This document shows positions 11,140 to 28,343 of a stretch of 64,000 nt of DNA, piece by piece. Made by a program: the position numbers and the translations under genes. The stretch's first letter is position 1; each line of letters begins with the position of its first letter. The notes beneath the pieces are model-generated. The model did not search any database and was not told where the DNA came from. It saw only the letters and a list, made by a program, of their open reading frames with translations. Location of the stretch: positions 4,815,001 through 4,879,000 of the forward strand of contig CP133159.1 of the NCBI GenBank assembly GCA_030913385.1, read 5' to 3'. This DNA is from Cytophagaceae bacterium ABcell3 (GTDB lineage Bacteria; Bacteroidota; Bacteroidia; Cytophagales; Cytophagaceae).

Positions 11140-11267
11140 CCCCAACGTCAGGCTATGAGAGGCCGCAGTTTATGTACGCCAACCTCGAAGCCTTGTAAAG
11201 CTTAAATATAACGAATAACAGAGAAATATCAACGATTACCTGCGGTCTCTTATAGCTATTGTTGGGG
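11140..11267 (-). repeat. attC-like site 7 (of gene-less cassette c15)
   Basis: Same sequence type as sites 5 and 6, boxes CCCCAAC and GTTGGGG. Confidence 0.85.
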
Positions 11268-11716
11268 GCTGTAGTATATTGACAAAGCTCTTCAGCTGGT
11301 GGCTATCGGTGTTTTAACAGCTTTCTTTCCGGTTGGTTAACACCTGACGGCAAGAGCATCTTAGAATCACAGCTTTTGTGGTTCTGTTTAGTCAACTCTT
11401 ATTCAATCTCTTATCTTCACATACCAAAAACCCGTTCAGGTTAGATAGTTAAAGAAAGTATAGATATTAGGTTTAAGCCATTCTCCTGTTAAAAAGATAT
11501 CTCTTTATTTTTTAACTTTTAACAGCTTTCCTGTTGGCGGTGCAGTATCATATTAATGAGCAGCTGCGTTTTGCCGCGACGAAAGAAAATCCGTTCCGGC
11601 GCCGTAACTATAAGTTAGTAAAGGAATCGTATTTTATCCTGCGATAGCTTACCAACCTGCCCCTTTTTAGGAACATGGTTTTATAGCAGATATGCCTGAG
11701 ATTCGCAATCTATAGC
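11268..11716 (-). repeat. Gene-less repeat cassette body, copy 3 (c15)
   Basis: Belongs to the second subtype, shared with copies 4-7 (AGAATCACAGCTTTTGTGGT hairpin segment). Its right end reads GCCGCCAAC where the other copies have GCCCCCAAC, a one-base mismatch to its own GTTGGGGGC end. Confidence 0.8.
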
Positions 11717-11847
11717 CGCCAACGTTTATATATGCCTTCGGAGGGGGATTTTATAGCAGTTCAATATCCACCGATGCCGAAGCAAGATATTGAGAAACAA
11801 CCTGACTAACAACGCTTACCCCCTCTGAGGCATATATGCTGTTATGT
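11717..11847 (-). repeat. attC-like site 8 (of cassette c14)
   Basis: Arms TATATGCCTTCGGAGGGGG and CCCCCTCTGAGGCATATA; boxes CGCCAAC and GTTATGT. The right box matches ACATAAC at 12843 over nine bases. Confidence 0.85.
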
Positions 11848-11859
11848 GGCGTTTTCATT

Positions 11860-12819: not shown

Positions 12820-12842
12820 TTGATTGGGTTATTTTTAATTCC

Positions 12843-12973
12843 ACATAACGTTGATATATGCCTTCGGTGGTGGATTTTAAAGTAGTTCACTATCCGCCGG
12901 CAGAGAAGAAAGATAATGAGAAACAGCCTGACTTGCAACGCCCGCCACCACTGAGGCATATATGCTGTTAGCA
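12843..12973 (-). repeat. attC-like site 9 (of cassette c13)
   Basis: Arms GATATATGCCTTCGGTGGTGG and CCACCACTGAGGCATATATG; boxes ACATAAC and GTTAGCA. The arms show compensating changes relative to sites 2 and 8 (GGTGGTGG with CCACCACT), so pairing is conserved rather than sequence. The centre has GAGAAACAGCCTGAC. Confidence 0.85.
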
Positions 12974-12980
12974 AACGTTT

Positions 12981-13484
12981 TTACTCATTTCTCCACCGTG
13001 GACCTCCTCTGCAAACTATTCTATAAATAACTCTTTTTAAAATCACCTCTTTATTCCTTTTGTCATAATAGATTTTTAAAATTTCTCCTTTTGACTTAGA
13101 ACCTTTCTTTTTTATCTTAATTTTAGATACTTCTTTTAAATCATTTTTATAGATAATTTGGGCTTTATTATTTTCAATTAATTTATAAATTTCATTATAT
13201 CTTAAGCATGATGCTTCATAAGAAAGTCTTTTTTCGTCCAGATATAAATTCAAATTTATGCCGTCCATTTTTACATTTCCATCATCACTTTTTTTACTTC
13301 TATAATTAATTTCATTTTTAATTTCAAGAATTCTCGTTTCTCTATAATTTTTTCTGACTAAGTCATAAAAAGAATTCGTATCTGTTTTTATCAAATGCTT
13401 CTCTGTTTCAAAGATTAAAGTATATCCTAATCCATCGAGAGAACTAAACAATACTAATACAAAAAATAAAAAGGCATACTTCAT
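12981..13484 (-). CDS. Hypothetical exported protein
   Basis: This 167-residue protein has a Sec-type N-terminal hydrophobic stretch (MKYAFLFFVLVLFSSLDGLG), followed by a basic, Lys-rich region without a recognised domain. It is the sole gene of cassette c13, with its stop 8 bases from site 9 and its start 13 bases from site 10. No promoter fits in that gap, so expression must depend on upstream cassettes. Confidence 0.65.
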   Translation of the reverse strand: MKYAFLFFVLVLFSSLDGLGYTLIFETEKHLIKTDTNSFYDLVRKNYRETRILEIKNEINYRSKKSDDGNVKMDGINLNLYLDEKRLSYEASCLRYNEIYKLIENNKAQIIYKNDLKEVSKIKIKKKGSKSKGEILKIYYDKRNKEVILKRVIYRIVCRGGPRWRNE

Positions 13485-13497
13485 TTTTTTAAATGTT

Positions 13498-13625
13498 TGC
13501 TAACGTCAGGCTATGAGAGGCCGCAGTTTATGTACGCCACCCTCGAAGCCTTGTAAAGCTTAAATATAACGAATAACAGAGAAATATCAACGATTACCTG
13601 CGGTCTCTTATAGCTATTGTTGGGG
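13498..13625 (-). repeat. attC-like site 10 (of gene-less cassette c12)
   Basis: Same type as site 5 but with GCCACCCTCGAAG in place of GCCAACCTCGAAG in the central region, a variant shared only with site 14. Boxes TGCTAAC and GTTGGGG. Confidence 0.85.
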
Positions 13626-14062
13626 GCTGTAGTATATTGACAAAGCTCTTCTGCTGGTGGCTATCGGTGTTTTAACAGCTTTCTTTCCGGTTGGTTAACA
13701 CCTGACGGCAAGAGCATCTTAGAATCACAGCTTTTGTGGTTCTGTTTAGTTAACTCTTATCTTCACATACCAAAAACCCGTTCAGGTTAGATAGTTAAAG
13801 AAAGTATAGATATTAGGTTTAAGCCATTCTCCTGTTAAAAAGATATCTCTTTATTTTTTAACTTTTAACAGCTTTCCTGTTGGCGGTGCAGTATCATATT
13901 AATGAGCAGCTGCGTTTTGCCGCGACGAAAGAAAATCCGTTCCGGCGCCGTAACTATAAGTTAGTAAAGGAATCGTATTTTATCCTGCGATAGCTTACCA
14001 ACCTGCCCCTTTTTAGGAACATGGTTTTATAGCAGATATGCCTGAGATTCGCAATCTATAGC
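13626..14062 (-). repeat. Gene-less repeat cassette body, copy 4 (c12)
   Basis: Second subtype, lacking the short TTCAATCTC segment present in copies 3, 6 and 7. Copy 5 has the same deletion and the same attC variant, so attC and the body to its right travel together. Confidence 0.8.
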
Positions 14063-14193
14063 CCCCAACGTTGATATATACCTTCGGAGGGGGATTTCAA
14101 AGCAGTGCACTATCCGCCGATGCCGAAGTAAGATAATGAGAAACAGTCAGACTAACAACGCCCACCCCCTCTGAGGTATATATGCTGTTGGGC
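14063..14193 (-). repeat. attC-like site 11 (of cassette c11)
   Basis: Arms GATATATACCTTCGGAGGGGG and CCCCCTCTGAGGTATATATG; boxes CCCCAAC and GTTGGGC. The right end GTTGGGCGC matches GCGCCCAAC before site 12. Confidence 0.85.
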
Positions 14194-14262
14194 GCTGGGC
14201 TTTCTTTATTCAATAGCTTGATTAATCATTTTTCACTCAACATATCTTATTCTCTATCTCTG

Positions 14263-14766
14263 CTAATTCAATAAATTTTTAGAGTACATTGTATTTGTAT
14301 ATCCTCCATTAAAGTAAATAGCCAAAGAGCAGATATTATCCTTTTTTTCATAATCCTTAATATTCGACCGTCCATCACTTCCCTCTCTATCGGAGTTTTT
14401 GACAAACCCTGCTTTCTCGATTTCTTGAATTCGATTAGTTACTTCGTCTCCTTTAAGTCTTTTCGTTCCTATCTGAATAGCTCTAATCAATCCTTTTTCA
14501 TCAACTATTAGAGTTAGAGAATAACTATTTAGAGATAAATTTTCCGCCTTAAGTTTCTTCCCTGTAACTTTAGTAAGTTGGGTGGCCATTTCATCACCTG
14601 CATTTTTTATCTCTCCAGATGTTACTGACTTAAATCCCTTGTTTTTAATGATTGTTATGACATCATTTTTATTGTTCCCTAAATAGGACTCCATTTCTTT
14701 TATTGATAAATTTTGACCAAAAACATTTGAAGATAAAAACACAAAATATAGAATTAGGTATTTCAT
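14263..14766 (-). CDS. Hypothetical exported protein
   Basis: This 167-residue protein has a signal peptide (MKYLILYFVFLSSNVFGQ, cleavage probably after Gly17). The mature part carries a charged helical segment around residues 45-65 and two Asn/Gly-rich ends. No recognised domain. It is the sole gene of cassette c11; the start is 103 bases from site 12, enough room for a promoter, although none was recognised. Confidence 0.65.
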   Translation of the reverse strand: MKYLILYFVFLSSNVFGQNLSIKEMESYLGNNKNDVITIIKNKGFKSVTSGEIKNAGDEMATQLTKVTGKKLKAENLSLNSYSLTLIVDEKGLIRAIQIGTKRLKGDEVTNRIQEIEKAGFVKNSDREGSDGRSNIKDYEKKDNICSLAIYFNGGYTNTMYSKNLLN

Positions 14767-14869
14767 ATTAACACTTTTGAAAATTATATTATTTATTTTA
14801 TAATAATCCTTTTATAAAATCCGATTAAAATTAATGATTAAAACGTTGATGAAGCATTCTTTGCCTTGC

Positions 14870-15000
14870 GCCCAACGTAACGGGTATGAGCAGGCGGGCG
14901 TTTGCCTGGCAGTCCGTATCCGCCGTAATATAAAGTTTGCTTAAGGTGTTAATGTTTCTACTCCTACATTCCGCCCGCTTGCTTATACCTAATGTTATGA
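14870..15000 (-). repeat. attC-like site 12 (of cassette c10)
   Basis: Distinct arms: GGGTATGAGCAGGCGGGCG with CCGCCCGCTTGCTTATACC. Boxes GCCCAAC and GTTATGA. The centre differs from the GAGAAACAGCCTGAC class. Confidence 0.8.
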
Positions 15001-15005
15001 AACGT

Positions 15006-15644
15006 TTATTTTTTTTTCCACCCCCAAAGTCGACCTGTTTTAGGTTTTCCATTATTATTTTTATTCATATCATTCTTTAATTCCTCTGCAAAATCTAGAA
15101 TTGCAGGATAGTTTTTGTCCCCTGACGCTTTTCTAAATTCTGCTAAAACATAATGGTTTTCCTCTGGCTTAACTAGGTATGTAAATTGTTCTTTTAAAAT
15201 CTCTCGGTCTGCAACATTATGTCTATATGCAGTTAGTATACTTTCTAAAGTATTAAGGTAAGTAATAATTTCCCATCGAAGTTTAGATGAATTCTCATAA
15301 TCAATTGAAATCTTTGAATTAGCTGCAGTAGGTTCTGATTCAAATATAACTTTAAAATACTTTTTATTGCTTTCCGAATCTTCTATTTCAAAGGTCTCTT
15401 GCTTATTTAGCTTAATGCATTGTTGTTGGTCAAATGTTTCCACTAATTTTCTAGCTGTAGATGATTTACTATTTAGTGATTTAGTCCAATCTTTGATTAA
15501 ATCCACAGCTTTAGAATTTCTTTTATTTTCATGATCTTGTTCAAAGGTAGATTTCAATATCCATAAACGGTAAACAATTAATGGGAAACCAATTATTGCG
15601 ATTATATCCCTAATCAAGGCTATGTTTTCTTTTGTGAACTCCAT
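15006..15644 (-). CDS. Hypothetical membrane-anchored protein
   Basis: This 212-residue protein has one N-terminal transmembrane helix (IALIRDIIAIIGFPLIVYRL, residues 8-27), followed by a charged helical cytosolic domain. Short one-helix proteins of this shape are common in accessory regions of Bacteroidota, but no family is assigned here. The stop lies 6 bases from site 12 and the start 18 bases from site 13. It is the sole gene of cassette c10. Confidence 0.65.
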   Translation of the reverse strand: MEFTKENIALIRDIIAIIGFPLIVYRLWILKSTFEQDHENKRNSKAVDLIKDWTKSLNSKSSTARKLVETFDQQQCIKLNKQETFEIEDSESNKKYFKVIFESEPTAANSKISIDYENSSKLRWEIITYLNTLESILTAYRHNVADREILKEQFTYLVKPEENHYVLAEFRKASGDKNYPAILDFAEELKNDMNKNNNGKPKTGRLWGWKKK

Positions 15645-15662
15645 TTTACTTATTTAATGTTT

Positions 15663-15792
15663 CATAACGTTGATATATACCTTCGGAGGGGAGGGGTATA
15701 GCAGTTCAGTATCCGCCGATGCCGAAGTAAGGTAATGAAAAACAGCCTAACTTACAACGCCCACCCCCTCTGAGGTATATATGCTGTTACCT
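15663..15792 (-). repeat. attC-like site 13 (of cassette c9)
   Basis: Arms GATATATACCTTCGGAGGGG and CCCCTCTGAGGTATATATG; boxes TCATAAC and GTTACCT. GTTACCTGCA is complementary to TGCAGGTAAC before site 14. Confidence 0.85.
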
Positions 15793-15802
15793 GCAGGCCT
15801 TT

Positions 15803-16213
15803 CTACAAATATCTTTCAGACTCATTGATTTCAAGGTCGTTTATACTTGCATACCTTTTTTTCATTAGTCCATTCTCATCAAATTCCCAATTTTCGTTCC
15901 CATAGGCTCTGAAGTATTTACCATCTTTGTTTTGATATTCATATTCAAATCTAACCGCAATTCTATTTTCTGAATGTGACCAATACTCTTTTTTGAGCTT
16001 ATAATTTAATTCCTTTTTCCATTTATCAGCTAAGAATTTTACAATTTCTTTTCTACCATTGACAAATGTATTTCGGTTTCTCCATTCGCTGTCAATAGTA
16101 TATGCTAATGAAACTTTTTCTGGATTCTGTGAATTCCAAGCATCTTCAGCCATTTGAATTTTCAGTTTTGCAGTTTCCAGGGTGAAAGGTGGGAGCGGAT
16201 GTTTTTGTTCCAT
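15803..16213 (-). CDS. DUF1348 / SnoaL-like (NTF2-fold) protein
   Basis: This 136-residue protein opens with [30 protein letters not shown], the start typical of the DUF1348 NTF2-fold family. A Trp/Arg-rich segment ([20 protein letters not shown]) and a C-terminal [15 protein letters not shown] follow. NTF2-fold proteins bind small hydrophobic ligands or act as simple enzymes; the substrate is unknown. It lies 4 bases downstream of a TetR gene, so it is probably the regulated target and may metabolise the ligand sensed by TetR. Confidence 0.8.
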
Positions 16214-16217
16214 TTTT

Positions 16218-16742
16218 TTAAATTAAATTGTTTACTATCGATTTTGATTTATTTACGATTTCATTTGATTTAAATAGTTGACTTTCTATAATAGAACTTT
16301 CAAATAGAAGGTAAATATGTGTTGCCAATAATTCATCTTCGACTAATAGTTCAAAAAAAATCCTTAAATCATTTTTGTGAGTTTGGATAACTGTAAGAAT
16401 ACTTTCTTGTTCTTTTGATATTTCAGATAAAATATTCAAGAAACTACAACCTCTAAAGTTCTCTTTATTGTTCATATGTATTATGAAATCAAATGCAGAT
16501 AAAATTTTTTCTTTCAATTTTTTAGATTTTAAAGTAAAATTTGAAAGTTCATTAAACCAATATTTATGTCTTCTATTAAGATACTCAACACATAAATCAT
16601 CTTTAGATTTAAAATGTTGGTAAAAACTAGCTTTTGCTACATTTGCTTCACTTATAATTTGGTTAATTCCTGTACTGTTATAACCTTGTTGATGAAATAA
16701 TAGGGAAGCTTGTTCTAATATTCTTTCTTTCGGAAAACTCAT
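16218..16742 (-). CDS. TetR/AcrR-family transcriptional regulator
   Basis: This 174-residue protein has an N-terminal TetR HTH ([25 protein letters not shown], then [15 protein letters not shown] with the conserved YxHFxSKDDL). An all-helical ligand-binding domain follows. It is first in a two-gene cassette with a DUF1348 gene 4 bases downstream. Its promoter region holds a near-perfect palindrome that covers the -33 area, so autorepression is likely. Confidence 0.9.
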
Positions 16743-16760
16743 ATTTACCTAATTGTTCAA

Positions 16761-16768
16761 CAAAGGTA
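16761..16768 (-). promoter_or_regulatory. -7 box of the TetR cassette promoter
   Basis: TACCTTTG on the minus strand matches the Bacteroidota consensus TAnnTTTG. A TTG lies 20 bases further upstream, inside the operator, at the expected -33 spacing. The start codon of the TetR gene follows 18 bases downstream. This is the clearest promoter seen inside a cassette. Confidence 0.65.
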
Positions 16769-16783
16769 TAAAACATCAAACGA

Positions 16784-16797
16784 ACAGACAAGTCTGT
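16784..16797. promoter_or_regulatory. Probable TetR operator
   Basis: ACAGACAAGTCTGT is a dyad with six perfect pairs around a two-base centre. It covers the -33 element of the TetR promoter, so a bound dimer would block polymerase. This fits autoregulation of the TetR-DUF1348 operon. Confidence 0.65.
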
Positions 16798-16857
16798 CTA
16801 TGTTTTATTTTAAAAAATTGTAATATAATTTTGGTATGGCTGTTTAAATCGGCTTGC

Positions 16858-16985
16858 AGGTAACGTCAGGCTATGAGAGGCCGCAGTTTATGTACGCCAC
16901 CCTCGAAGCCTTGTAAAGCTTAAATATAACGAATAACAGAGAAATATCAACGATTACCTGCGGTCTCTTATAGCTATTGTTGGGG
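16858..16985 (-). repeat. attC-like site 14 (of gene-less cassette c8)
   Basis: Same variant as site 10 (GCCACCCTCGAAG). Boxes AGGTAAC and GTTGGGG. Confidence 0.85.
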
Positions 16986-17422
16986 GCTGTAGTATATTGA
17001 CAAAGCTCTTCTGCTGGTGGCTATCGGTGTTTTAACAGCTTTCTTTCCGGTTGGTTAACACCTGACGGCAAGAGCATCTTAGAATCACAGCTTTTGTGGT
17101 TCTGTTTAGTTAACTCTTATCTTCACATACCAAAAACCCGTTCAGGTTAGATAGTTAAAGAAAGTATAGATATTAGGTTTAAGCCATTCTCCTGTTAAAA
17201 AGATATCTCTTTATTTTTTAACTTTTAACAGCTTTCCTGTTGGCGGTGCAGTATCATATTAATGAGCAGCTGCGTTTTGCCGCGACGAAAGAAAATCCGT
17301 TCCGGCGCCGTAACTATAAGTTAGTAAAGGAATCGTATTTTATCCTGCGATAGCTTACCAACCTGCCCCTTTTTAGGAACATGGTTTTATAGCAGATATG
17401 CCTGAGATTCGCAATCTATAGC
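16986..17422 (-). repeat. Gene-less repeat cassette body, copy 5 (c8)
   Basis: Shares the nine-base TTCAATCTC-type deletion with copy 4. It lies in tandem with copy 6, upstream (in the cassette direction) of copy 4 and of the TetR cassette. Confidence 0.8.
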
Positions 17423-17550
17423 CCCCAACGTCAGGCTATGAGAGGCCGCAGTTTATGTACGCCAACCTCGAAGCCTTGTAAAGCTTAAATATAACGAATA
17501 ACAGAGAAATATCAACGATTACCTGCGGTCTCTTATAGCTATTGTTGGGG
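17423..17550 (-). repeat. attC-like site 15 (of gene-less cassette c7)
   Basis: Same type as sites 5-7 (GCCAACCTCGAAG variant); boxes CCCCAAC and GTTGGGG. Confidence 0.85.
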
Positions 17551-17999
17551 GCTGTAGTATATTGACAAAGCTCTTCAGCTGGTGGCTATCGGTGTTTTAA
17601 CAGCTTTCTTTCCGGTTGGTTAACACCTGACGGCAAGAGCATCTTAGAATCACAGCTTTTGTGGTTCTGTTTAGTCAACTCTTATTCAATCTCTTATCTT
17701 CACATACCAAAAACCCGTTCAGGTTAGATAGTTAAAGAAAGTATAGATATTAGGTTTAAGCCATTCTCCTGTTAAAAAGATATCTCTTTATTTTTTAACT
17801 TTTAACAGCTTTCCTGTTGGCGGTGCAGTATCATATTAATGAGCAGCTGCGTTTTGCCGCGACGAAAGAAAATCCGTTCCGGCGCCGTAACTATAAGTTA
17901 GTAAAGGAATCGTATTTTATCCTGCGATAGCTTACCAACCTGCCCCTTTTTAGGAACATGGTTTTATAGCAGATATGCCTGAGATTCGCAATCTATAGC
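17551..17999 (-). repeat. Gene-less repeat cassette body, copy 6 (c7)
   Basis: Second subtype without the deletion, closest by eye to copies 3 and 7. Confidence 0.8.
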
Positions 18000-18130
18000 C
18001 CCCAACGTCGGTGTATTACACGTGGGGCCTTTTTAAGCTAGTTTAGTATCCCCCGCGACAAAAGACAAGATAGTGAGAAACAGCCTGACTTACAAGCCTC
18101 CCGCCCCATGTGTAATACACACTGTTGGGC
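18000..18130 (-). repeat. attC-like site 16 (of gene-less cassette c6)
   Basis: GTGTATTACACGTGGGGC pairs with GCCCCATGTGTAATACAC. Boxes CCCCAAC and GTTGGGC. The centre holds GAGAAACAGCCTGAC. Confidence 0.85.
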
Positions 18131-18527
18131 AAAGTTTGATTTTTCCCCGTTAAGATGAGAAGTGCTTTCAGCTTTATGCCGTTAAAATATTAAGAAGCAG
18201 ACCCATTTTCTTTTAAATTTTAAAATCTTTTTATTTTTTATTCCTATTAATATTTATTTTCCTTTTAGTTAATTATCAGTATTTAACGAGCAGAAAAATT
18301 ATTACTTACCTGGACAGCATTGACAAACCTCCAATGAATTAAAAATTAAATTTGCTACTAAAAGCGGGTTTGTTTTGGGGCATGAGCATTCAGATAGATA
18401 ATGCTAGATCTGGAAAAAATTCAACCGAATAGTAAAGAATTAATTCCTAAAAAAATTCCGGTGAATTAAAGACAGTTAAAAAATCTACTTTTTCCGGAAA
18501 GAAGTCGTCATTTTTTTTCCAAATTTT
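18131..18527 (-). other. Second type of gene-less cassette body (c6)
   Basis: 397 AT-rich bases with no credible reading frame on either strand, unrelated by eye to the seven repeat cassettes. Its ends match (GTTGGGCAAA and TTTTGCCCAAC), so it is a complete cassette. It contains several poly-T and TTTAAATTTTAAAAT-like stretches that could be promoter or decayed gene remains. Confidence 0.6.
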
Positions 18528-18541
18528 GCCCAACGTGAGCA
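18528..18541 (-). repeat. attC-like site 17, left piece (of cassette c5, split by intron)
   Basis: GCCCAACGTGAGCA is the outer left arm. Joined to 20454 it gives GCATATGGCATGGCCAGCAG, which pairs with the right arm CTGCTGGTCTGCTATATGC. This restores a normal palindrome and fixes both intron ends. Confidence 0.75.
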
Positions 18542-18615
18542 GTCGAGTAGGCAAGGGGAATTTCACCCCAAGCCTCTCACAGAACCGTACTTGATAGTCT
18601 CCCATCATACGGCTC
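18542..18615 (-). ncRNA. Group II intron domains V and VI
   Basis: On the minus strand, GAGCCGTATG through AAGTACGGTTC (18615-18582) is a 34-base domain V with its characteristic AGC...GTACGGTTC pairing. Domain VI follows with the stem GGCTTGGGG/CCCCTTGCC around the branch region GTGAAATT, then the intron end CTACTCGAC. Domain V is the catalytic heart of the ribozyme and appears intact. Confidence 0.85.
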
Positions 18616-18640
18616 TTGTTATACAATCTTAAGCGTTAGC

Positions 18641-19891
18641 CTATTTAAATCCTAATTGCCAATGGTAAAATAGATTAGGAAATTGCTCTCTAATCTGCTC
18701 AAGCCAATTGTAGGCCTTTTTCAGGCTTGTTTTATAACGCTTGTACCTTTTCCTTGCCCACCGGACAATCCTCTGTGACAGTATACGAAATACCGGATGA
18801 AGTGCTGACTTCCGATATTTGCCATAATAGTTTACCCAACCCCTTATAAAGGGATTTAAGTATCCTGCTATTCCGACAATGCAGTGGAAACTCAGCTTTT
18901 CAAAATCCAACGCTTCCAATTTATCTGCAATTCGCTTCTTTGACTTTATACTGATAGCACAGTCATAACCTACGAACAGTTTCCCCGCTTCTTTCGAACT
19001 TGTGGTTCGTGGTTGAAAAGAGAAACCTAAAAAGTCAAACTTTACAACAGGGAATTTTTCTGTTCTTCGATAGTCGCGACAGTAGACAAGTTTGGTCTTT
19101 TCTGGATGAAGTTCTAGTTTACACTCCTCCATACGGTACTGAAGAGACCTTAGAACATATTCTGCATGAGGCTTTGAACGACAGTGAAGTATGGCATCAT
19201 CGGCATATCTGACATATTTCACTGAAGGGTGGTTGCGGTCAAGCCATTTATCCATACCATAATGAAGAAACAGGTTTGCCAGTAACGGGCTGATAACACC
19301 TCCTTGTGGCGTGCCTTTTCCTTGCTTTTCAATCAGGGAACCTGATTTACTTTGCACGGGGGCTTTTAACCACCTCTCGATATATAGCAGGCACCATTTT
19401 TCCGGCACATGCTTCTTTACTGCCAGTAATAACTTGGAATGGTCTATATTGTCAAAGAATCCTTTGATATCAAGGTCTATTACCCAGTCAGACCTTTTAC
19501 AGTTTAATCGAACAGCTTGTAATGCATGGTGTGCACTCTTGCTTGGACGATAACCATATGAGTCGGGACTGAAGACCTCTTCGAACCTTGGTTCCAGATA
19601 TTCCTTGATTACCATTTGAGCTACCCTGTCACTTATGGTGGGGATTCCCAGCTTCCGCAATTTACCGTCGTCTTTTGGTATTTCTACCTCTTTAACTGGT
19701 GGGGGGAAGTAGCTTCCTGAAGCCAGCCGGTTCCAAAGTTTGTACAGGTATTTTGACCTATCGGCATCAAATTCTTCCATGCTGACAGAGTCTATACCTG
19801 CCTTCCCTTTGTTGGCTTTGACTTTCTTATAAGCTCCCCAAACCATTTGACGGCTTATGGGTACTGATTTTGTCTCATTCCATAAAATCAT
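18641..19891 (-). CDS. ltrA: Group II intron reverse transcriptase/maturase
   Basis: This 416-residue RT contains the blocks GYRPSKSAHHAL, VIDLDIKGFFDNIDH, KGTPQGGVISPLLANLFLH and the catalytic VRYADD. A thumb/maturase X region ends FIRGWVNYYGKYRKS...RRIVRWARKRYK-like. No HNH endonuclease domain follows, so retrohoming would rely on nicked or single-stranded DNA, as for other EN-minus introns. Attraction to single-stranded folded attC would fit that. All motifs are intact. It sits in domain IV of the intron, 26 bases upstream of domain V. The exact intron class cannot be decided by reading. Confidence 0.93.
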   Translation of the reverse strand: MILWNETKSVPISRQMVWGAYKKVKANKGKAGIDSVSMEEFDADRSKYLYKLWNRLASGSYFPPPVKEVEIPKDDGKLRKLGIPTISDRVAQMVIKEYLEPRFEEVFSPDSYGYRPSKSAHHALQAVRLNCKRSDWVIDLDIKGFFDNIDHSKLLLAVKKHVPEKWCLLYIERWLKAPVQSKSGSLIEKQGKGTPQGGVISPLLANLFLHYGMDKWLDRNHPSVKYVRYADDAILHCRSKPHAEYVLRSLQYRMEECKLELHPEKTKLVYCRDYRRTEKFPVVKFDFLGFSFQPRTTSSKEAGKLFVGYDCAISIKSKKRIADKLEALDFEKLSFHCIVGIAGYLNPFIRGWVNYYGKYRKSALHPVFRILSQRIVRWARKRYKRYKTSLKKAYNWLEQIREQFPNLFYHWQLGFK

Positions 19892-20453
19892 CCTCTTTCG
19901 GAGTTGTTAAATGTAATTGACTGTATAACCTAACCCCTTCGCTCCACTCCCATTACAGGAGCTTCATCACTACTACGAGTTAGTCCGCCCCTGCATAATG
20001 CACCGGTATTTTGCCTTTAGGTTGTTCCTATTGTGCATTTCCCTTTGAGGGCTGGAACTGTCCCCAGCCTCAACACTATGCAGGTTCCCAAGTTCCTTAA
20101 TTGAGCCTGAATAAAGTCATGCCGCCTGAATGACGCCCATCGTTCAGCCAGTAGACAGGTTTCCGCTGAACTCTTAACTGCATAGCATACTCTACAGCTT
20201 TTGATGGAATGTGGCTGGTTCTCGACACCTCATCAGCGGTTACGGTTAGTTCATCTCTTTTATTCTTACCTGTAGTACTCATGGTACTACTTTTCCTGAA
20301 CGCTCAGCACCATAGCTCTTTACTACAGCACCTTCAGGTGGTTTGGAACCCTCTCCTGTAAGACGATTCCGGTGGGCCAACCTTACAAACGGTCTCCACC
20401 ATCTCAATTAAAGCATGCAGTGTGTTTAATGCCGACACTGCTTCTTGGCACAC

Positions 20454-20570
20454 TATGGCATGGCCAGCAGATTTTAAAGCAGTTAACTATCCACCGAAAC
20501 AAAAAACAGATAAAGCTCTGAAGTATCGGATTCTATAGAACCTGCTGGTCTGCTATATGCATTGTTGTGG
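20454..20570 (-). repeat. attC-like site 17, right piece (of cassette c5)
   Basis: Continuation of the split site after the intron, ending in the box GTTGTGG, which with following bases (GTTGTGGTAC) matches GTACCACAAC before site 18. Confidence 0.75.
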
Positions 20571-20581
20571 TACGTTTTTTA

Positions 20582-21157
20582 TTATTTTTCAGGTATTTTT
20601 CCCGTTTTTTTACTGCTGTTAATTGTCACATTTTTTAAAATTTGGTAATGTTCTTCCATTGAAGTATCAAATTTATACCTCAAGGTAAAACAGCAATCAC
20701 AAGAACAAAATCCACCATAAGATGTATAAATTAAATTTAATGTATCACTACCAATTACTTCGGCTTCTCCAAGGAAATTGTGACAACAGTTTGCCACAAC
20801 CGTCACATCAATTATCAAATCATCCTTATCTCTAATAATATTATTAAATATTGGATAGTTATTAAATGTATCTGGTTTTCCTGAATTATCACACTCATTT
20901 AATATTTCCAAGTTAATTGGAGAAAGTCCATTGTTCAGAAGTTTAATCATTTTTTCTGAATAGGGAAGAAATGTTGTTCCTGCAAGTACTTGCTTAGTAC
21001 TTCTTCCACCGGGGATATATAAAGTATCTATTTCAAATTCACTATCTGACACACTTCTTTTTACGAAAACTGTATCTAAATTTGAGTTTTGACCGAAAAC
21101 AGAGTTTGCTTGCAAAACAACAGTCAAAAGAATTACTATAACAGATGTCTTATTCAT
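20582..21157 (-). CDS. Hypothetical exported protein with Cys-rich segment
   Basis: This 191-residue protein has a clear signal peptide (MNKTSVIVILLTVVLQANSVFGQ). The mature part includes an unusual cysteine cluster near residues 135-160 (NCCHNFLGEAEV and GGFCSCDCCFTLRY), which may bind metal or form disulfides. No family is recognised. It is the sole gene of cassette c5, with its stop 11 bases from site 17 and its start 10 bases from site 18. Confidence 0.7.
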   Translation of the reverse strand: MNKTSVIVILLTVVLQANSVFGQNSNLDTVFVKRSVSDSEFEIDTLYIPGGRSTKQVLAGTTFLPYSEKMIKLLNNGLSPINLEILNECDNSGKPDTFNNYPIFNNIIRDKDDLIIDVTVVANCCHNFLGEAEVIGSDTLNLIYTSYGGFCSCDCCFTLRYKFDTSMEEHYQILKNVTINSSKKTGKIPEK

Positions 21158-21167
21158 TTTAAATGTA

Positions 21168-21301
21168 CCACAACGTTTCTCAGCTATACACAGGCAGGGA
21201 TTATAACCACTGAACTTCCTGCGAAGAGCTGAACTTTAAATTTACCACTTTCCTGTCCTACGAAGTACGAAACCCCTGCTTGTGTATAGATGATGTTATA
21301 G
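21168..21301 (-). repeat. attC-like site 18 (of cassette c4)
   Basis: GCTATACACAGGCAGGG pairs with CCCTGCTTGTGTATAG. Boxes CCACAAC and GTTATAG; GTTATAGGGC is complementary to GCCCTATAAC before site 19. The centre is longer and unlike the others. Confidence 0.8.
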
Positions 21302-21313
21302 GGCGTTTTTCTT

Positions 21314-22108
21314 TTATTTTCTTGGTTTCGCTTCACTTCCTGCTAAAATTCCACCGTCAATAGTTAGTTCAATTCCGGTTACATATTTACTTTCGTCACT
21401 TGCTAAATACAGAATTCCGTAAGCAACATCAATCGGGTCTCCAAAGTGTCCCATTGGAATTCCAAATTCTACATCTTCAATTATTTGTTGTCTTTGTTCT
21501 CCTTCACCAAGCATAGCGTCCCACATTGGTGTCATAATAGCTGCTGGATGAACACTGTTACATCTAATCTTATATCCTTTTTCTGCACAATGTAGGGCTA
21601 CACTTTTTGTGTGATTTCTAACGGCTGCCTTGCTTGAAGCATATGCAACAGCTCCTGGAATTCCAACTACACCACTTCTTGAAGAAATATTTACAATACT
21701 TCCGCCTTTTTCCTTCATTAGTTTTATGGCATATTTACATCCAAGCATAACGCCTGTTGAGTTTACTCTGTGTACCTCTTCCCAAGATTGTAAGTCTGAG
21801 TTTTCAGCGTCCCAAGGTCCCGATGATTCTAAAAATCCTGTTATCCCTGCATTATTTACTAAAATGTCAAGGCGTCCGAATTTTTTAGTTATGTACTCGG
21901 TTGCTTTCAACCAACTTTCTTCATTTCCAACTTCCAAATTTAAATATTCAGCTTTTGTCTTTAAACCCTTAACAAGAGCATTTCCTTCTTCGTCCCTAAT
22001 GTCAGAAACGATTACAATTGCTCCTTCTTTATGAAAGAGTTCAGCAGTTGCACGTCCGATTCCACGAGCCGAACCTGTTATTAATGCTATTTTGTCTTTT
22101 AGTCTCAT
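21314..22108 (-). CDS. Short-chain dehydrogenase/reductase (SDR)
   Basis: This 264-residue classical SDR has the NAD(P)-binding TGSARGIG, NNAGITG, catalytic Ser in NISSRSG and YASSK (Tyr-Lys). An Asp after beta-2 (VSDIRDEEG) suggests NAD preference. The longer ORF to 22240 runs into the palindrome, so MRLKDKIALITG at 22108 is chosen. It is the only clearly metabolic enzyme among the cassettes; the substrate cannot be read. The stop is 12 bases from site 18. Confidence 0.9.
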   Translation of the reverse strand: MRLKDKIALITGSARGIGRATAELFHKEGAIVIVSDIRDEEGNALVKGLKTKAEYLNLEVGNEESWLKATEYITKKFGRLDILVNNAGITGFLESSGPWDAENSDLQSWEEVHRVNSTGVMLGCKYAIKLMKEKGGSIVNISSRSGVVGIPGAVAYASSKAAVRNHTKSVALHCAEKGYKIRCNSVHPAAIMTPMWDAMLGEGEQRQQIIEDVEFGIPMGHFGDPIDVAYGILYLASDESKYVTGIELTIDGGILAGSEAKPRK

Positions 22109-22142
22109 TTTTATCTTCTTAGTGTCTTTTTTTTTAAATGCC

Positions 22143-22273
22143 CTATAACGTTTGAGTGTATAAGTAGTAGCGGATTTCGAAGCACTTTCCTTTCCGCTTA
22201 GCACAAGGTTTTTTAGAAGCACAGACCTTCGATTTACCACTTAACCCGCTATTACTTATACACTTTGTTGGGC
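22143..22273 (-). repeat. attC-like site 19 (of cassette c3), overlapping a coding end
   Basis: GTGTATAAGTAGTAGCGG pairs with CCCGCTATTACTTATACAC. Boxes CTATAAC and GTTGGGC. The last 22 bases of the D12 methylase gene lie inside the right arm. Confidence 0.85.
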
Positions 22274-23211
22274 ACAGTATTCTTCCTTTTTTCAATCCAA
22301 TTGGCCTTTAAACCAAGTAAGTCAATCTTTTTTATTTCAATCTTATTTGTCGGGTTATGGATTTCAGGTACTATTAAATTATGTGAGTAAATCATTATTT
22401 CTGTTCCTTTTGAAGCATTAGCTGCGTGGTAATTCAGCTCGTACGTTCTTTGTAGGAAAGGTTGATAAAGATTTCTGATATTCACGTCATTGTCATACGA
22501 AACTAGCCAAAATCTATTTTTTAGCTTTGAGATTATTTGAGAAATCTGTTGATGGTCTGCGTGCTCGTAAAAGTTGATATAAAGGTCTTTTCCTTTGTTG
22601 TAATAAGGTGGGTCAAAATAAAAAAGAGTCTTGTCGGGCAGTTCCTTATCCAATCTATTCGTTAAATCAACCGCATCTAAGTTGTATAAGGCAATTCTAT
22701 TTTTGTAACGGCTTATTTTCTTTATTCGCTGGATTAAATCGTCTTTATTAAATCTTGCGTCAATTTTCCAATCACCGGTTTGATTTTTACCGCCAATTAC
22801 TCCTGCTTTTAAGATTCCTGACCTATTAGTTCTGTTTAGGAAAAAAGTTGAAAACCCAATTTCAAGGTTATTGTAGTTATTAGGGGCTTGCTGTATTTCC
22901 TTCTGCTTTTCCCAATTCTTTATTGTAATATCAGTTTCAATTATTTTTTCGCAAAGTTCGTCTGTTTGGTTTAATACGCTGTCCCAAAATGCATAAATTC
23001 GAAAGTCATAATCATTAATATGGATTTTTTGGACGTATTCGTTGAATAGCAATGAAAGAGCAACGGACGCACCACCCGCATATGGTTCAACATAGTGGCC
23101 ATCTGTCAATAGGTTATATTCAATAAGTAATTGAACGTAATGCGACAGTTTTCCTTTTCCGCCTGGGTAACGAAGGGGCGAATAATAATTTGTGTTTAAA
23201 TTAATTCCCAT
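22252..23211 (-). CDS. D12-class DNA adenine N6-methyltransferase
   Basis: This 319-residue Dam-like enzyme has the AdoMet-binding YPGGKGK at 15-21, VEPYAGGASVAL at 41-52, FFLNRTNRSGIL at 123-134 and catalytic DPPY at 200-203. It methylates adenine in duplex DNA; the target is unknown. It is third in an operon: its start overlaps the ParB-like gene by 16 bases. The C-terminal residues (VPNKVYK) are encoded by the attC-like palindrome itself. No matching restriction enzyme is obvious, so it may protect DNA from, or license, the ParB-like protein. Confidence 0.92.
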   Translation of the reverse strand: MGINLNTNYYSPLRYPGGKGKLSHYVQLLIEYNLLTDGHYVEPYAGGASVALSLLFNEYVQKIHINDYDFRIYAFWDSVLNQTDELCEKIIETDITIKNWEKQKEIQQAPNNYNNLEIGFSTFFLNRTNRSGILKAGVIGGKNQTGDWKIDARFNKDDLIQRIKKISRYKNRIALYNLDAVDLTNRLDKELPDKTLFYFDPPYYNKGKDLYINFYEHADHQQISQIISKLKNRFWLVSYDNDVNIRNLYQPFLQRTYELNYHAANASKGTEIMIYSHNLIVPEIHNPTNKIEIKKIDLLGLKANWIEKRKNTVPNKVYK

Positions 23212-24551
23212 AGTTTTACAAAAAATATTTCTAAGTTATCCCAATTCTTTTTCAACTGTTCAGCATCTGGATTGAAGTCTTTGTTATGTACAAAGGCATT
23301 GAATGTGTCAATTGAAAAAATACTGTCTTTCATTGTAGAAGCAGTATATGCACCTTTTAATTTGTTTTTATCAAGCACTCCTTTACTTTCTAAGTCTGAT
23401 GCTACGGATTTTAGTTTATGACTTAATTTACTATTCTCGTTAACTCCTGTAATTGGATTTTTTTCTATGTAACTATCCATCGACAATTCAATGAACACAC
23501 GAAAAGCAATGGCACCTGAGTTTTCAAAATCCCTTAAATCAAGGTCTTTGAGTTCGTGGTAAATTTTATTAACTCTAGGCTGACTAATAGGAATTATTGT
23601 GCTTTTAGGAATAATTGTGTGCCGTTTAGAAATCAACGGATTACTTTTTTTGCCTTTTGGCTTGTCTTTTTTGGGGTCAGCTTTCTTTGGTCTAGTTGTG
23701 CTAATCAATTCCCAATTTCCTGATAGTTCCTGAGTTTTGTCAGGCAGGTCTGTTTTCTTAAAAGTTTCAAGATAGTTGAGACGGTCGTCTTTATAGTAAA
23801 TGTCTTTAACTGTAAAATCTTTTCTCAATAAATCATTTGCGGCTTTGCTTAAAGGTTTTGCTACTTCTGATGGTTCATATCTAGTAATGACCTTGCCATC
23901 TTTGATATCAATTCCTGCAACTCTTCTAAAGTCAGGGTCGGTAACCAAACGTTGAAGTGAAGAAGATTTTACTTTGCTTAAATTCTTTTTAAGTTCAGAG
24001 TCAACGGAATCTTCTTTTTGCAAAAAATCAATTACTTGTAGTGCATAACTTGAAGTTCCTTTAACTCGCTCATCGTAACGGGCTTTTTGTTGAGCATCCC
24101 AAACAACAGTTCCAACTCCATCGTTTTGGCCTGTATGCTTTAATTCAATCCAATGCTCTGCTTCCTTTTCTTCATCAAAAAGTATACAAGGCACCTTTTC
24201 AATAGGTGATTTTGAGTATTGTTCAGATAGCTTTTTGAACTTATTTAAAAGGGACTTATTCGTTTCAGGAATTAGGTCGGGATTTTCAAGCAGCTTTAGT
24301 GCAGTAACTCTTCGATTACCTTCTAATACATTATATTGATTTGGCTGTTTTTCGTGTTTTGTTACAAAAATTGGGTCGCCTGGGTTTAACCCTTCATTGG
24401 TAATGTCTTCAGCTAACTTGGCCAATTTTTCTCCTTGGTCTTCAATCATTGTCTTGATTGCTTCCCTTTGATTGCCGACCATCTCAAATCTGGGATTTTC
24501 GATATTTATGTGTAAATCGGCTATGTCCAATAATGTTCGTTTATGGCTCAT
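23196..24551 (-). CDS. ParB/Srx-fold domain protein, putative nuclease or defence component
   Basis: This 451-residue protein has an N-terminal ParB-like domain (LADLAEDI-type helix at about 43-52 and EGNRRVTALKLL at 77-88 with the GNRR motif). The middle is Lys-rich and positively charged (about 285-320), and the helical C-terminus (IKTLSK-like and FNAFVHNKD near 425) could be HEPN- or RloF-like. ParB/Srx-fold proteins bind or cut DNA with CTP or ATP. The gene is 5 bases after a cyclase-like gene and overlaps a D12 methylase, so the three probably form one system. The first domain is well supported, the rest is not. Confidence 0.75.
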   Translation of the reverse strand: MSHKRTLLDIADLHINIENPRFEMVGNQREAIKTMIEDQGEKLAKLAEDITNEGLNPGDPIFVTKHEKQPNQYNVLEGNRRVTALKLLENPDLIPETNKSLLNKFKKLSEQYSKSPIEKVPCILFDEEKEAEHWIELKHTGQNDGVGTVVWDAQQKARYDERVKGTSSYALQVIDFLQKEDSVDSELKKNLSKVKSSSLQRLVTDPDFRRVAGIDIKDGKVITRYEPSEVAKPLSKAANDLLRKDFTVKDIYYKDDRLNYLETFKKTDLPDKTQELSGNWELISTTRPKKADPKKDKPKGKKSNPLISKRHTIIPKSTIIPISQPRVNKIYHELKDLDLRDFENSGAIAFRVFIELSMDSYIEKNPITGVNENSKLSHKLKSVASDLESKGVLDKNKLKGAYTASTMKDSIFSIDTFNAFVHNKDFNPDAEQLKKNWDNLEIFFVKLWELI

Positions 24552-24556
24552 TTTGT

Positions 24557-25180
24557 TTATGACTTTAAAGCGTTAATCATTCCTGCATATTTTAAAGAAT
24601 AACTGTCTCGATAATTATTTTCAAAGTTTTGAATCTCTTCGGGGTTCTCTAGATGCCAATAATAATACAGATGCTGTCTGTCGTTTCCCCTTTCTACTAA
24701 AAGCGGAATGTTTTCTATATTAAGCTGTGGTAAATTTTGCTTTACCAACCTGCATTGACCGGGCTGAATTTTTGGCTTACCCGTTTCGTTGTCTAAAAAT
24801 GACTGAACGTATGCACCACCATAAATCGCATTCTTTTCAATTCCCTGAAATTCAATTTTTCCCTGATAATCAAAAGAACCGAATGAAATTGATGTCGTCA
24901 ACATATAGTTCCTTTCGATCATTCTTTTGTTAATTTTCTTCACGGCATCCAAAATACTCAAAAGTTTTGTCTGGTTGTCTCCATTTCGAGAAAACAAAAT
25001 TCCACAATCAGATACAAAGAATCCTTCTACATTGTCAGTTTCTCTTAGCACATTGAAGCCCGTCTGATAAAAATATTTTATGGCTTCTAGTGCAGTTGCG
25101 TCATTTTTCATTAGTTCTTTAAAACCTGAAATGTCAGTAAATGCAACAAATGTATTTCCGTTAAAGTCTGCTATTGGCAT
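24557..25180 (-). CDS. Class III nucleotide cyclase-like protein
   Basis: This 207-residue protein opens with VAFTDISGFKELM, matching the first metal-binding Asp (Asp16) of class III adenylate/guanylate cyclases. The second, FVSDCG (Asp58), follows at the expected spacing, and GSFDYQGKIEFQGIEKNAIYGGAYVQ resembles the dimer-interface and substrate segment of that fold. Single-domain cyclases of this kind make cCMP/cUMP in Pycsar defence, so a signalling role is possible. It heads the three-gene operon of cassette c3. Activity and base preference cannot be decided by reading, and no obvious cyclic-nucleotide effector domain is next to it. Confidence 0.7.
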   Translation of the reverse strand: MPIADFNGNTFVAFTDISGFKELMKNDATALEAIKYFYQTGFNVLRETDNVEGFFVSDCGILFSRNGDNQTKLLSILDAVKKINKRMIERNYMLTTSISFGSFDYQGKIEFQGIEKNAIYGGAYVQSFLDNETGKPKIQPGQCRLVKQNLPQLNIENIPLLVERGNDRQHLYYYWHLENPEEIQNFENNYRDSYSLKYAGMINALKS

Positions 25181-25198
25181 AGTGTTGTTTTATATTGT

Positions 25199-25330
25199 GC
25201 CCAACGTTTGTATATAGGACGGAGGGCGAATTTTACCATTCGGACTTATCCTCCGATACCAAAGTAAAGATACCCAACATTAGCCTGATTTACAACCAAC
25301 ACGCCCTCTGGCTTATATACATTGTTAGCG
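25199..25330 (-). repeat. attC-like site 20 (of cassette c2)
   Basis: GTATATAGGACGGAGGGCG pairs with CGCCCTCTGGCTTATATAC. Boxes GCCCAAC and GTTAGCG; GTTAGCGGAT matches ATCCGCTAAC before site 21. Confidence 0.85.
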
Positions 25331-25342
25331 GATGTAATTTTT

Positions 25343-26029
25343 TCACAGTTCATTAATTTTGTGTGTCTTATCTGGTTTTAAAATTTCAAGAATGTAAGTC
25401 GTAAACGTCATATTAATAACATCATTTTTTGGAAATCTGTGAGCAGGTCTGCATCGAATTTTCGAGTATATCTTAAAGTTGGGATACTTTTTTGCCTTCT
25501 CATTGATATAACTTTTTGTTGAATCATCAAGCTTGAATAAGTCAAAAATTAAATAGGTGGAGTTTGCTTTTGCTATTTCATTTTTCTTCTCTGAATTCTT
25601 ATCATAGCAGATATCAAATTCTTCGAGTAGAATATTTATTTTCTTATTGAAACCGGCAAGTATAAAATAACACTTTATGTCTTGGTGATATATGTCAAGA
25701 TTTTGAAGTCGAATTAAGTCCCAAATAACAGAACCCAAAGAAATTATTGAATTGCCAATCCACTTTGACTCAAATGCAAATTTCCACTTTGATTTTTCAT
25801 CCATCAAAACAAAGTCAACCTGAAGCGGTCGTCCTTGACCATCATTAGTACATGGATGATTTATTTCAGTTAGGGTCTTATATTCTGCTATACTATTTAA
25901 AATTTGACCAACAGGATAGGATAAGTACTTTTCATTAAATAAATAGCCCCTGAAGCAGTTGAACTCAAACAAAAGCCAACCTGACACACCTTCGCTTATC
26001 TTTCTTTGTATATTCTTTAAGTTACTCAT
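25343..26029 (-). CDS. Putative PD-(D/E)xK-fold nuclease
   Basis: In this 228-residue protein, QVDFVLMDEKSKWKFAFESKWI (residues about 70-91) has the Asp...Glu-x-Lys spacing of restriction-endonuclease-fold enzymes, on strands typical of that core. The C-terminus has several Arg/His-rich segments (IRCRPAHRFPK). No named family is recognised. The ATG is only 5 bases downstream of the T-run of a strong terminator that follows a tRNA-like RNA. Translation therefore needs read-through of that terminator, which resembles type III toxin-antitoxin layout. Confidence 0.6.
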   Translation of the reverse strand: MSNLKNIQRKISEGVSGWLLFEFNCFRGYLFNEKYLSYPVGQILNSIAEYKTLTEINHPCTNDGQGRPLQVDFVLMDEKSKWKFAFESKWIGNSIISLGSVIWDLIRLQNLDIYHQDIKCYFILAGFNKKINILLEEFDICYDKNSEKKNEIAKANSTYLIFDLFKLDDSTKSYINEKAKKYPNFKIYSKIRCRPAHRFPKNDVINMTFTTYILEILKPDKTHKINEL

Positions 26030-26034
26030 AATCT

Positions 26035-26066
26035 AAAAAAAAGACTGACCCCGCTTAGAGTCAGTC
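26035..26066 (-). terminator. Rho-independent terminator between tRNA-like RNA and nuclease-like gene
   Basis: On the minus strand the perfect 7-bp stem GACTGAC/GTCAGTC, with a ten-base loop, is followed by eight T. It ends the tRNA-like transcript and immediately precedes the start codon at 26029, so it could work as an attenuator. Confidence 0.85.
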
Positions 26067-26085
26067 TATAACAAGGAGCTTTAGT

Positions 26086-26178
26086 GTCTCAAGCAGGACT
26101 CGAACCTACAAATGATGGTTAAAAGTCTTTGCTCCTTGTTTAAATGCCGCCATGTTTTGCCCGTTAAACTATTGAGAC
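26086..26178 (-). ncRNA. tRNA-like RNA without a normal anticodon arm
   Basis: 93 bases with a perfect 7-bp acceptor stem (GTCTCAA/TTGAGAC), a D-arm-like GTTTAACGGGCAAAAC and a proper T-arm GTAGGTTCGAGTCCTGC. The 43 bases between them do not form a usual anticodon stem. They contain AACAAGGAGC, complementary to GCTCCTTGTT in the transcript downstream of the tRNA end, and a CTTTTAA like a lysine anticodon loop but with unpaired flanks. CCA is not encoded. It is unlikely to decode; a tRNA mimic or decoy is more likely. It lies in cassette c2, upstream of a nuclease-like gene. Confidence 0.65.
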
Positions 26179-26254
26179 ATCTAAAAATATTTTTCCTAAA
26201 TATATGCATTTTTCTCTTTTGAGCTCTTGTTGGCACTCTATTTATTTTTATATC

Positions 26255-26382
26255 CGCTAACGTCAGGCTATGAGAGGCCGCAGTTTATGTACGCCAACCT
26301 CGAAGCCTTGTAAAGCTTAAATATAACGAATAACAGAGAAATATCAACGATTACCTGCGGTCTCTTATAGCTATTGTTGGGG
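26255..26382 (-). repeat. attC-like site 21 (of gene-less cassette c1)
   Basis: Same type as site 5; boxes CGCTAAC and GTTGGGG. It is the palindrome nearest the recombinase. Confidence 0.85.
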
Positions 26383-26831: not shown

Positions 26832-26868
26832 CCCCAACTTGCGGATAGGCGCATGTTATTGCGCCTAT
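26832..26868 (-). promoter_or_regulatory. Candidate attI-like junction and hairpin
   Basis: The box CCCCAAC (26832-26838) ends cassette c1 and is followed by non-cassette DNA TTGCGG. A perfect 9-bp hairpin ATAGGCGCA/TGCGCCTAT with a six-base loop (26845-26868) overlaps the recombinase stop codon. On the cassette strand the loop holds ATAAC, which with the GTT box 16 bases on resembles a simple attI core pair. It has no T-run, so a terminator role is less likely. Confidence 0.5.
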
Positions 26869-28343
26869 TTCCCTTTTGGTTTCCTTTTAGTCTTCAATAT
26901 ATGCTTTAAGTTCGATAAATTCAAATCATCTGCCGGACTTTTTATGCCTTTAATGTACCTTGTACTTACGTGGGTGTATAGCTCAGTTGTTTTACTACTA
27001 TTGTGACCCAATAATTCTTGGATGTACCTTATATCTGTTCCATTTTCTAACAGATGGGTGGCAAATGAGTGTCTCAACCAATGCAAGGTAGCATCTTGAG
27101 GAAGCCCTGCGTCCAGGCAGGCGTTTTTAAAGACCGATTGTAGGCTCTTTTTTGAATATTGTCCTCCAAATTGCCCTTCAAAAAGATAGTGTGATGGTTT
27201 GTAGGCTTTATAGTAAGCTCTAAGCAGATCCAGGTTTTGCTTAGAAAGTAAAGTAATACGATCTTTTGCTCCTTTGCCCTTTTCTATCATCAGATACCCT
27301 TGTTCTTTATTTATGTCACAGATTTTTAGGTTTAGCAACTCACCTGCCCGCAAACCGGAAGCATATACCAGCGTAAGCATACAAAGATGTTTTATATTCT
27401 TACACTTGGAAAGAATCCTCTGTATCTCTTCTTTAGAAAATGTTTTCGGTAATCTGATTTCTTTTTGTGGCCGGGTTACGGCCAAACATACATCTGTTCT
27501 TTTCAGAACTTCTCTATAATAAAAATTGATGGCGTTAATCATCACATGAACACTAGATGTTCCATACTTCCTAACTGTACTACAAGCTAATACATAGCTG
27601 TTTATTTCTTCAAAGTGCAGGTCGTCGACTTTTTTGCTTTTATTTTGCCAGTAAAAACAAAACCTGTAAAAGTTATTATAGTAAGAACTAATGGTTTTAT
27701 CGCTATAATTTCTGGCCTTCAATGTTTTAAGATAGTCCTCAGGAATATGTATCCGATCTTTGTACGATTGAGTCCAAAATTGCTCTTTAAGTATTAGACT
27801 TTGTATGGACATATTCTGGTGTATGAAAAAATAAACCGTTCCTTGCACACACCTTAGCAGGCGGTAAAGTAGTTTTTCGTCCGCAAGCATATATAATGCA
27901 CTCATCTTCCGATGATACTTAACAAAATCAATGTTTTTTAAGTACTTCTTTAACTCCATAATTCGCTCTGAGGTTAACATATACATAAGCTGCCCCTCAA
28001 TTTCAGCTTTTCTTACAGTCGCTTTAAAAAAAGGTCGAATGGTGGGTATCTCAAAGTATTCGTCTCTGATACAAGAGCCATCATGTTGATTTGCTTTGCT
28101 AACAGCCTCTTTTTTCAAATACACCCTATCTAAAACTATTCTATTTCCAAAATTAAGTTCTATAGAGTCCGGGTAAAGCTCATCTGCAGGAGAAATAAGG
28201 CACTTTAAATCATGATTATAGGCTATGCCGTCTAAAGAAAGGATTTCTTTAAAAAGTTTTACATCTCTTTTAAAATGGTAAGTATAGTACGGATGCCCAT
28301 TTAGAATAACCTTGTTTTGTTTAATCGTAGTCCTGGTAAACAT
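26865..28343 (-). CDS. Tyrosine recombinase with long N-terminal extension, probable cassette integrase
   Basis: This 492-residue protein has an unrecognised extension at residues 1-190, a SAM-like core-binding domain at about 200-290 (LKARNYSDKTISSYYNNF) and a catalytic domain from about 300. Catalytic residues are Arg332 (SGLRAGE), Lys near 357 (KGKGAKDR), His421/Arg424 (LHWLRHSFATHLLE), His447 (LGHNSSKTTELYTH) and Tyr456. It ends KGIKSPADDL, as in many IntI and XerC relatives. The extra IntI segment, expected between KDR and the HxxR motif, is missing: only about 60 residues separate them. It lies directly upstream of the cassette array on the same strand, so it is the best candidate to move the cassettes, but this is inferred from position. 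Confidence 0.88.
   Translation of the reverse strand: MFTRTTIKQNKVILNGHPYYTYHFKRDVKLFKEILSLDGIAYNHDLKCLISPADELYPDSIELNFGNRIVLDRVYLKKEAVSKANQHDGSCIRDEYFEIPTIRPFFKATVRKAEIEGQLMYMLTSERIMELKKYLKNIDFVKYHRKMSALYMLADEKLLYRLLRCVQGTVYFFIHQNMSIQSLILKEQFWTQSYKDRIHIPEDYLKTLKARNYSDKTISSYYNNFYRFCFYWQNKSKKVDDLHFEEINSYVLACSTVRKYGTSSVHVMINAINFYYREVLKRTDVCLAVTRPQKEIRLPKTFSKEEIQRILSKCKNIKHLCMLTLVYASGLRAGELLNLKICDINKEQGYLMIEKGKGAKDRITLLSKQNLDLLRAYYKAYKPSHYLFEGQFGGQYSKKSLQSVFKNACLDAGLPQDATLHWLRHSFATHLLENGTDIRYIQELLGHNSSKTTELYTHVSTRYIKGIKSPADDLNLSNLKHILKTKRKPKGK

Follow-up and report, generated by a model that had tools for sequence, protein, structure and literature searches.

A tRNA-like RNA and the gene of a nuclease-like protein lie together in a single integron cassette of Cytophagaceae bacterium ABcell3. 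We propose, with a probability of about one half, that the two constitute a mobile module in which the RNA restrains the nuclease, arranged like a type III toxin-antitoxin system; the module is probably directed against phages. The DNA analyzed, hereafter the window, was a stretch of 64,000 nucleotides.

Locus layout and cassette setting

The preliminary description of this DNA had claimed an RNA, a terminator, and a gene. All of these elements were present on the minus strand, in the order tRNA-like RNA, trailer, terminator, and 228-aa ORF, and the ATG was located five bases past the T run, as described. The hairpin with eight T was likewise found, except that its stem was longer than the 7 bp given previously. 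The features are listed below.

26865-28343, minus strand: tyrosine recombinase of 492 aa, probable integron integrase (Pfam Phage_integrase, 7e-40; TIGR02249, 183.6 bits, cut-off 265)
26255-26382, minus strand: attC-like site toward the integrase, where the preceding cassette ends; the same type recurs along the array
26085-26179, minus strand: tRNA-like RNA body, from T-1 (26179) to A73 (26085) (Rfam RF00005, 41.2 bits; conserved and covarying in L005, L006, and L007)
26131-26140, minus strand: insert arm AACAAGGAGC (7 of 10 pairs with the trailer changed on both sides over four loci)
26070-26079, minus strand: trailer GCTCCTTGTT, complementary to the insert and separated from A73 by 5 nt (14-bp equivalent in L007)
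26035-26067, minus strand: intrinsic terminator with 11-pair stem, 4-nt loop, and T8 (kept in L005 and L006)
25343-26029, minus strand: PD-(D/E)XK-like nuclease candidate of 228 aa (sequence motif E22, D72, E87-x-K89)
25199-25330, minus strand: attC-like site of the RNA-nuclease cassette (0 sites in 5 shuffles)

The RNA and the gene form one cassette between two attC-like sites, which had YYYAAC and GTTRRR ends and inverted arms. More such sites were found along the array and none in five shuffled sequences. In this genome, a single contig of 5.115 Mb, the RNA and the gene occur a second time, as an identical copy with different flanks at a distance of 56 kb. The adjoining integrase scored below the cut-off for integron integrases; it carries an N-terminal extension of approximately 200 aa, and its reading direction is that of the cassettes. 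A large integron-like array with many attC sites was observed at 9989-26382 of the window and at 7440-18522 of L019, with several near-identical units approximately 565-577 bp apart. Inside the window array, the region 18542-20382 contained two group II intron matches and a group II reverse transcriptase (18641-19891).

The cassette adjoins a PD-Lambda-5 pair consisting of a ParB-like protein and a methyltransferase (22252-24551), and the array also holds type I restriction-modification (RM) genes. The PD-Lambda-5 pair is preceded by a 207-aa protein without family match (24557-25180). Elsewhere in the window (6357-8206), a tyrosine recombinase fragment overlapped a second ORF, which by eye resembled an IS91-type transposase. 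The palindrome CCCGATAGCTATCGGG, absent from the window, was found in the same genome within a tRNA-Ser-like gene (L042) and a tRNA-Asn gene (L036).

Conservation of the RNA and its linkage to the gene

The Rfam tRNA model matched positions 26178-26085 above its cut-off of 29 bits, and no other Rfam family, including RF03085 (the AbiF RNA motif), matched at the locus. Read canonically, the RNA comprises G1TCTCAA7, U8A9, the D arm, A14, G18G19, the insert, the anticodon loop CTTTTAA (UUU), the T arm, and A73. The acceptor stem (G1-C72) has 7 bp, or 8 bp with T-1:A73, and the T loop sequence is TTCGA. The acceptor, D, and T arms covary and the core residues are present, as expected of a cloverleaf. 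A regular 5-bp anticodon stem with a 7-nt loop is lacking: the extra stretch is placed between the D arm and the anticodon loop, and neither of two candidate stems is fully kept. ARAGORN made no tRNA call at the RNA, presumably because of the insert. These results bear out the earlier statement that the RNA has no normal anticodon arm. ARAGORN reported no tmRNA gene with a tag peptide in the window, and Tandem Repeats Finder detected zero repeats at 25900-26300; the RNA was a single unit in all four loci described below. An origin from a host tRNA was rejected on the basis of the best gapped match (52/72). We also considered a small ORF within the RNA (26106-26153, MAAFKQGAKTFNHHL followed by a stop codon), the frame of which was preserved in the four loci but without signs of coding selection; six amino-acid-changing versus two silent changes were counted by eye in the three close loci.

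Homologous proteins were found in a Fluviicola MAG (L005, 78% identical), in a Marinilabiliaceae MAG (L006, 75%), and, by a genome search with the protein profile, in genome G679 (L007, 45%). In L005 and L006, the RNA and the terminator were directly upstream of the gene, and upstream of the L007 gene we found an RNA that had diverged but kept this plan; its insert:trailer helix had 14 bp and another sequence. The RNA was therefore directly upstream in all four loci with protein identity of at least 45%. The preliminary description had made its reading depend on the presence of the RNA upstream of homologous proteins, and it was found at all three. The most distant relative (L020, 30% identical) was without the RNA; a 933-aa TrlF/Ppl-like ATPase was encoded upstream instead, at a distance of 36 nt. 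Such a TrlF/Ppl-like ATPase gene followed after 36 nt by a nuclease relative (L022, 6529-10077) is a candidate two-gene defence operon. Defence-related neighbours were also observed at the other loci, namely type I RM-like genes (named by eye) near L007 and an Upx-like gene after L005, in addition to the Ppl-like ATPase partner at L020. In L006, attC-like sequence was recognized by eye on both sides, although the pattern of the script did not score this locus. L021 (G1168) was judged too distant to count. No homologues were found in viral contigs, plasmids, or phages, and a 36-nt phage match was discounted, as it covered only part of the 3' half of the RNA, the half in which the generic tRNA T arm is located.

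For the covariation analysis suggested in the preliminary description, the four RNAs (window, L005, L006, and L007) were aligned, the unalignable linker was taken out by hand, and 27 pairs were counted in the acceptor stem with T-1:A73, the D arm, the T arm, and the insert:trailer helix. As a result, 99.1% of the cells were paired and 14 of the 27 pairs had changed on both sides, which was matched by none of 500 shuffles; sliding the partners by 1-3 columns lowered the pairing to 42-51%. Three of the four distinct RNAs are mutually close, so that most double changes come from the divergent L007. Among the insert:trailer pairs, two of the seven doubly changed ones arose in L006 and five in L007, and every double change in the acceptor, D, and T stems rests on L007. 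Among the window, L005, and L006, the identity of the RNA was 89-92%, that of the CDS 72-74%, and that of third codon positions 45-51%; the unpaired parts were among the most conserved of the RNA, and there was no variable guide-like segment. The RNA is thus more than a chance resemblance, since three independent homologues are preceded by it and compensatory changes are seen among the copies.

In a covariance-model search, full-length, high-scoring RNA matches were confined to the nuclease loci of the four genomes from which the RNAs came. The other matches listed scored far lower, those in a sample of 178 Bacteroidia genomes being tRNA-sized (approximately 71-81 nt), and among the matches listed there was no RNA copy lacking the gene.

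Pfam, NCBIfam, and PADLOC gave no family at a useful score for the 228-aa protein, and sequence searches of the PDB with it returned nothing convincing. However, E22, D72, E87, and K89 were invariant in five sequences, in the E...D...ExK arrangement of a PD-(D/E)XK nuclease, which supports the former term "nuclease-like" and a PD-(D/E)XK-like nuclease as the candidate function. The AlphaFold prediction with the three close sequences was too shallow (pLDDT 29) for an alpha-beta core to be assessed; therefore, the nuclease assignment rests on the sequence motif.

Alternative folds and possible modes of action

The complementarity noticed earlier between a segment inside the RNA and one before the terminator proved to be exact: the insert and the trailer are perfectly complementary, and 10 bp was reached by only 3 of 2000 shuffles. 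Because the insert:trailer helix crosses the acceptor stem, the two either alternate or coexist as a pseudoknot. When nested folds were predicted, the one with the insert:trailer helix was favored over the forced tRNA fold by 5-18 kcal/mol, and the RNA body without the trailer was predicted to be still able to form the acceptor stem. In addition, all four RNAs have a conserved GGCA with which their first four bases, T-1 through 3, can pair; this pairing showed one-sided changes only. For the window, L005, and L006, all predicted folds contained the terminator; L007 had no separate terminator hairpin. The term "attenuator-like", which implied a fold rivalling the terminator, consequently had to be given up: the insert:trailer helix competes or pseudoknots with the acceptor stem, no helix among the predicted folds competes with the terminator, and there is thus no attenuator in the usual sense. 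A terminator predicted to form in every fold fits a control of ratio rather than a switch.

Based on this design, we infer the following mode of action. A single promoter would produce the tRNA-mimic RNA in excess, since the terminator would halt most transcription and slight read-through would yield the nuclease mRNA. The folded RNA, its active shape set by the insert:trailer helix, would bind and restrain the PD-(D/E)XK-like protein in trans, with the conserved segments GGCAUUUA and UUUUAACC as candidate contact points. Loss or refolding of the short RNA, for instance upon shut-off of host transcription by a phage or an attack on tRNA-like molecules, would free the nuclease to cut nucleic acid, whereby it may be toxic. 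We favor an RNA-restrained nuclease because the design matches that of AbiF/RCd22, in which a terminator-limited RNA restrains the toxin in trans. The upstream position of the RNA, its covariation and conservation, its linkage to the gene in the search, the terminator in all folds, and the defence context were counted for this reading; the dependence of double changes on L007, the missing terminator hairpin of that locus, the RNA-free 30% relative, and the motif-based nuclease call were counted against it.

The same two sets of pairings could instead belong to a leader that acts only in cis, namely a bistable tRNA-like sensor of tRNA processing, charging, or cleavage that tunes how strongly the downstream nuclease is expressed. 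Either the 3' acceptor strand or GGCA is available as a partner of the 5' acceptor strand, and the insert has the trailer as its partner; 4/4 RNAs retain both sets, and the predicted stability of the insert:trailer fold agrees with such a sensor. We nevertheless regard it as a tentative alternative, since the terminator hairpin overlaps no alternative helix, L007 has no separate terminator to be controlled, and the changes in the pairing with GGCA are one-sided. A combined version, in which the RNA guards the nuclease and at the same time senses an attack on tRNA, appears doubtful; here, phage or host factors for the processing, charging, or cleavage of tRNA-Lys-like molecules would flip the folds and thereby release the nuclease.

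Strict linkage and strong conservation of the RNA would suit a ribonucleoprotein equally well, with the RNA carried by the nuclease as a cofactor or positional guide required for its activity, not as its inhibitor. This seems unlikely, as the most conserved regions include the unpaired parts, no segment varies as a guide would, and the distant homologue manages without such an RNA. Still less probable is a decoy of tRNA-Lys(UUU) or a resistant spare tRNA, serving in protection from an anticodon nuclease or in translation. The host tRNA-Lys(UUU) indeed has the identical loop CTTTTAA, and U33, UUU, A37A38, and A73 are retained in 4/4 RNAs, but three of the four have a poor stem below the loop, an insert adjoins this stem, ARAGORN rejects the RNA, and its body is not close to any host tRNA. 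That the RNA is a degraded tRNA gene present in the cassette by chance, with an unrelated nuclease gene, would account for its recognition by Rfam and not by ARAGORN; the conserved order and the compensatory changes over four loci contradict this and make it hardly credible.

Comparison with known systems

In AbiF/RCd22 of Clostridioides difficile, the order of RNA, terminator, and toxin expressed by read-through is a working design, and the RCd22 RNA neutralizes AbiF in trans and limits its transcription (PMC12373285). The RNA-restrained nuclease proposed here shares with AbiF/RCd22 (Rfam RF03085) a structured RNA of approximately 100-130 nt and an intrinsic terminator, followed by a toxin gene that is read through. 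They differ in that RCd22 has two hairpin motifs in place of one tRNA mimic with an insert:trailer helix, and AbiF is unrelated to the PD-(D/E)XK-like protein; neither an RF03085 match nor an Abi_2-type Pfam match was obtained at our locus.

With the type III systems (ToxIN, TenpIN, CptIN, and AbiQ), the module has in common the order of RNA, terminator, and protein, the defence context, and a long-range pairing of the pseudoknot type. The type III-like arrangement originally suggested therefore holds as to order, with the terminator between RNA and gene in three of the four loci (window, L005, and L006). It does not extend to the components: the RNA is tRNA-like and has no tandem repeats, and sequence profiles gave no Pfam match to the ToxN/AbiQ/TenpN/CptN superfamily for the protein, whose motif is PD-(D/E)XK-like. 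The RNA-nuclease module would operate in the manner of a type III system, yet it does not belong to these systems, because it has neither the repeats nor a ToxN-family protein.

The RNA resembles tRNA-Lys(UUU) in its acceptor, D, and T arms, U8, A14, G18G19, CTTTTAA, and A73, and departs from it in the insert before the anticodon loop, the weak anticodon stem, the pairing with the trailer, and the fixed link to a nuclease gene. In titles and abstracts of the open-access literature, we found no tRNA-like RNA module of this kind associated with an integron cassette, a type III system, or an antitoxin. If our reading is correct, an RNA family and a protein family absent from Rfam, Pfam, NCBIfam, and PADLOC would join RNA-controlled defence, tRNA mimicry could serve as a controlling RNA, and integron cassettes could move an RNA-protein pair as a single unit. 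Finally, the TrlF/Ppl-type ATPase and nuclease at L020 are related to the present module through the partner nuclease, which is the 30%-identical relative, and differ from it in having an ATPase gene upstream instead of an RNA. One branch of the nuclease family thus has an RNA ahead of its gene, and another has a TrlF/Ppl-type ATPase next to it; therefore, the choice of regulator can be compared directly.
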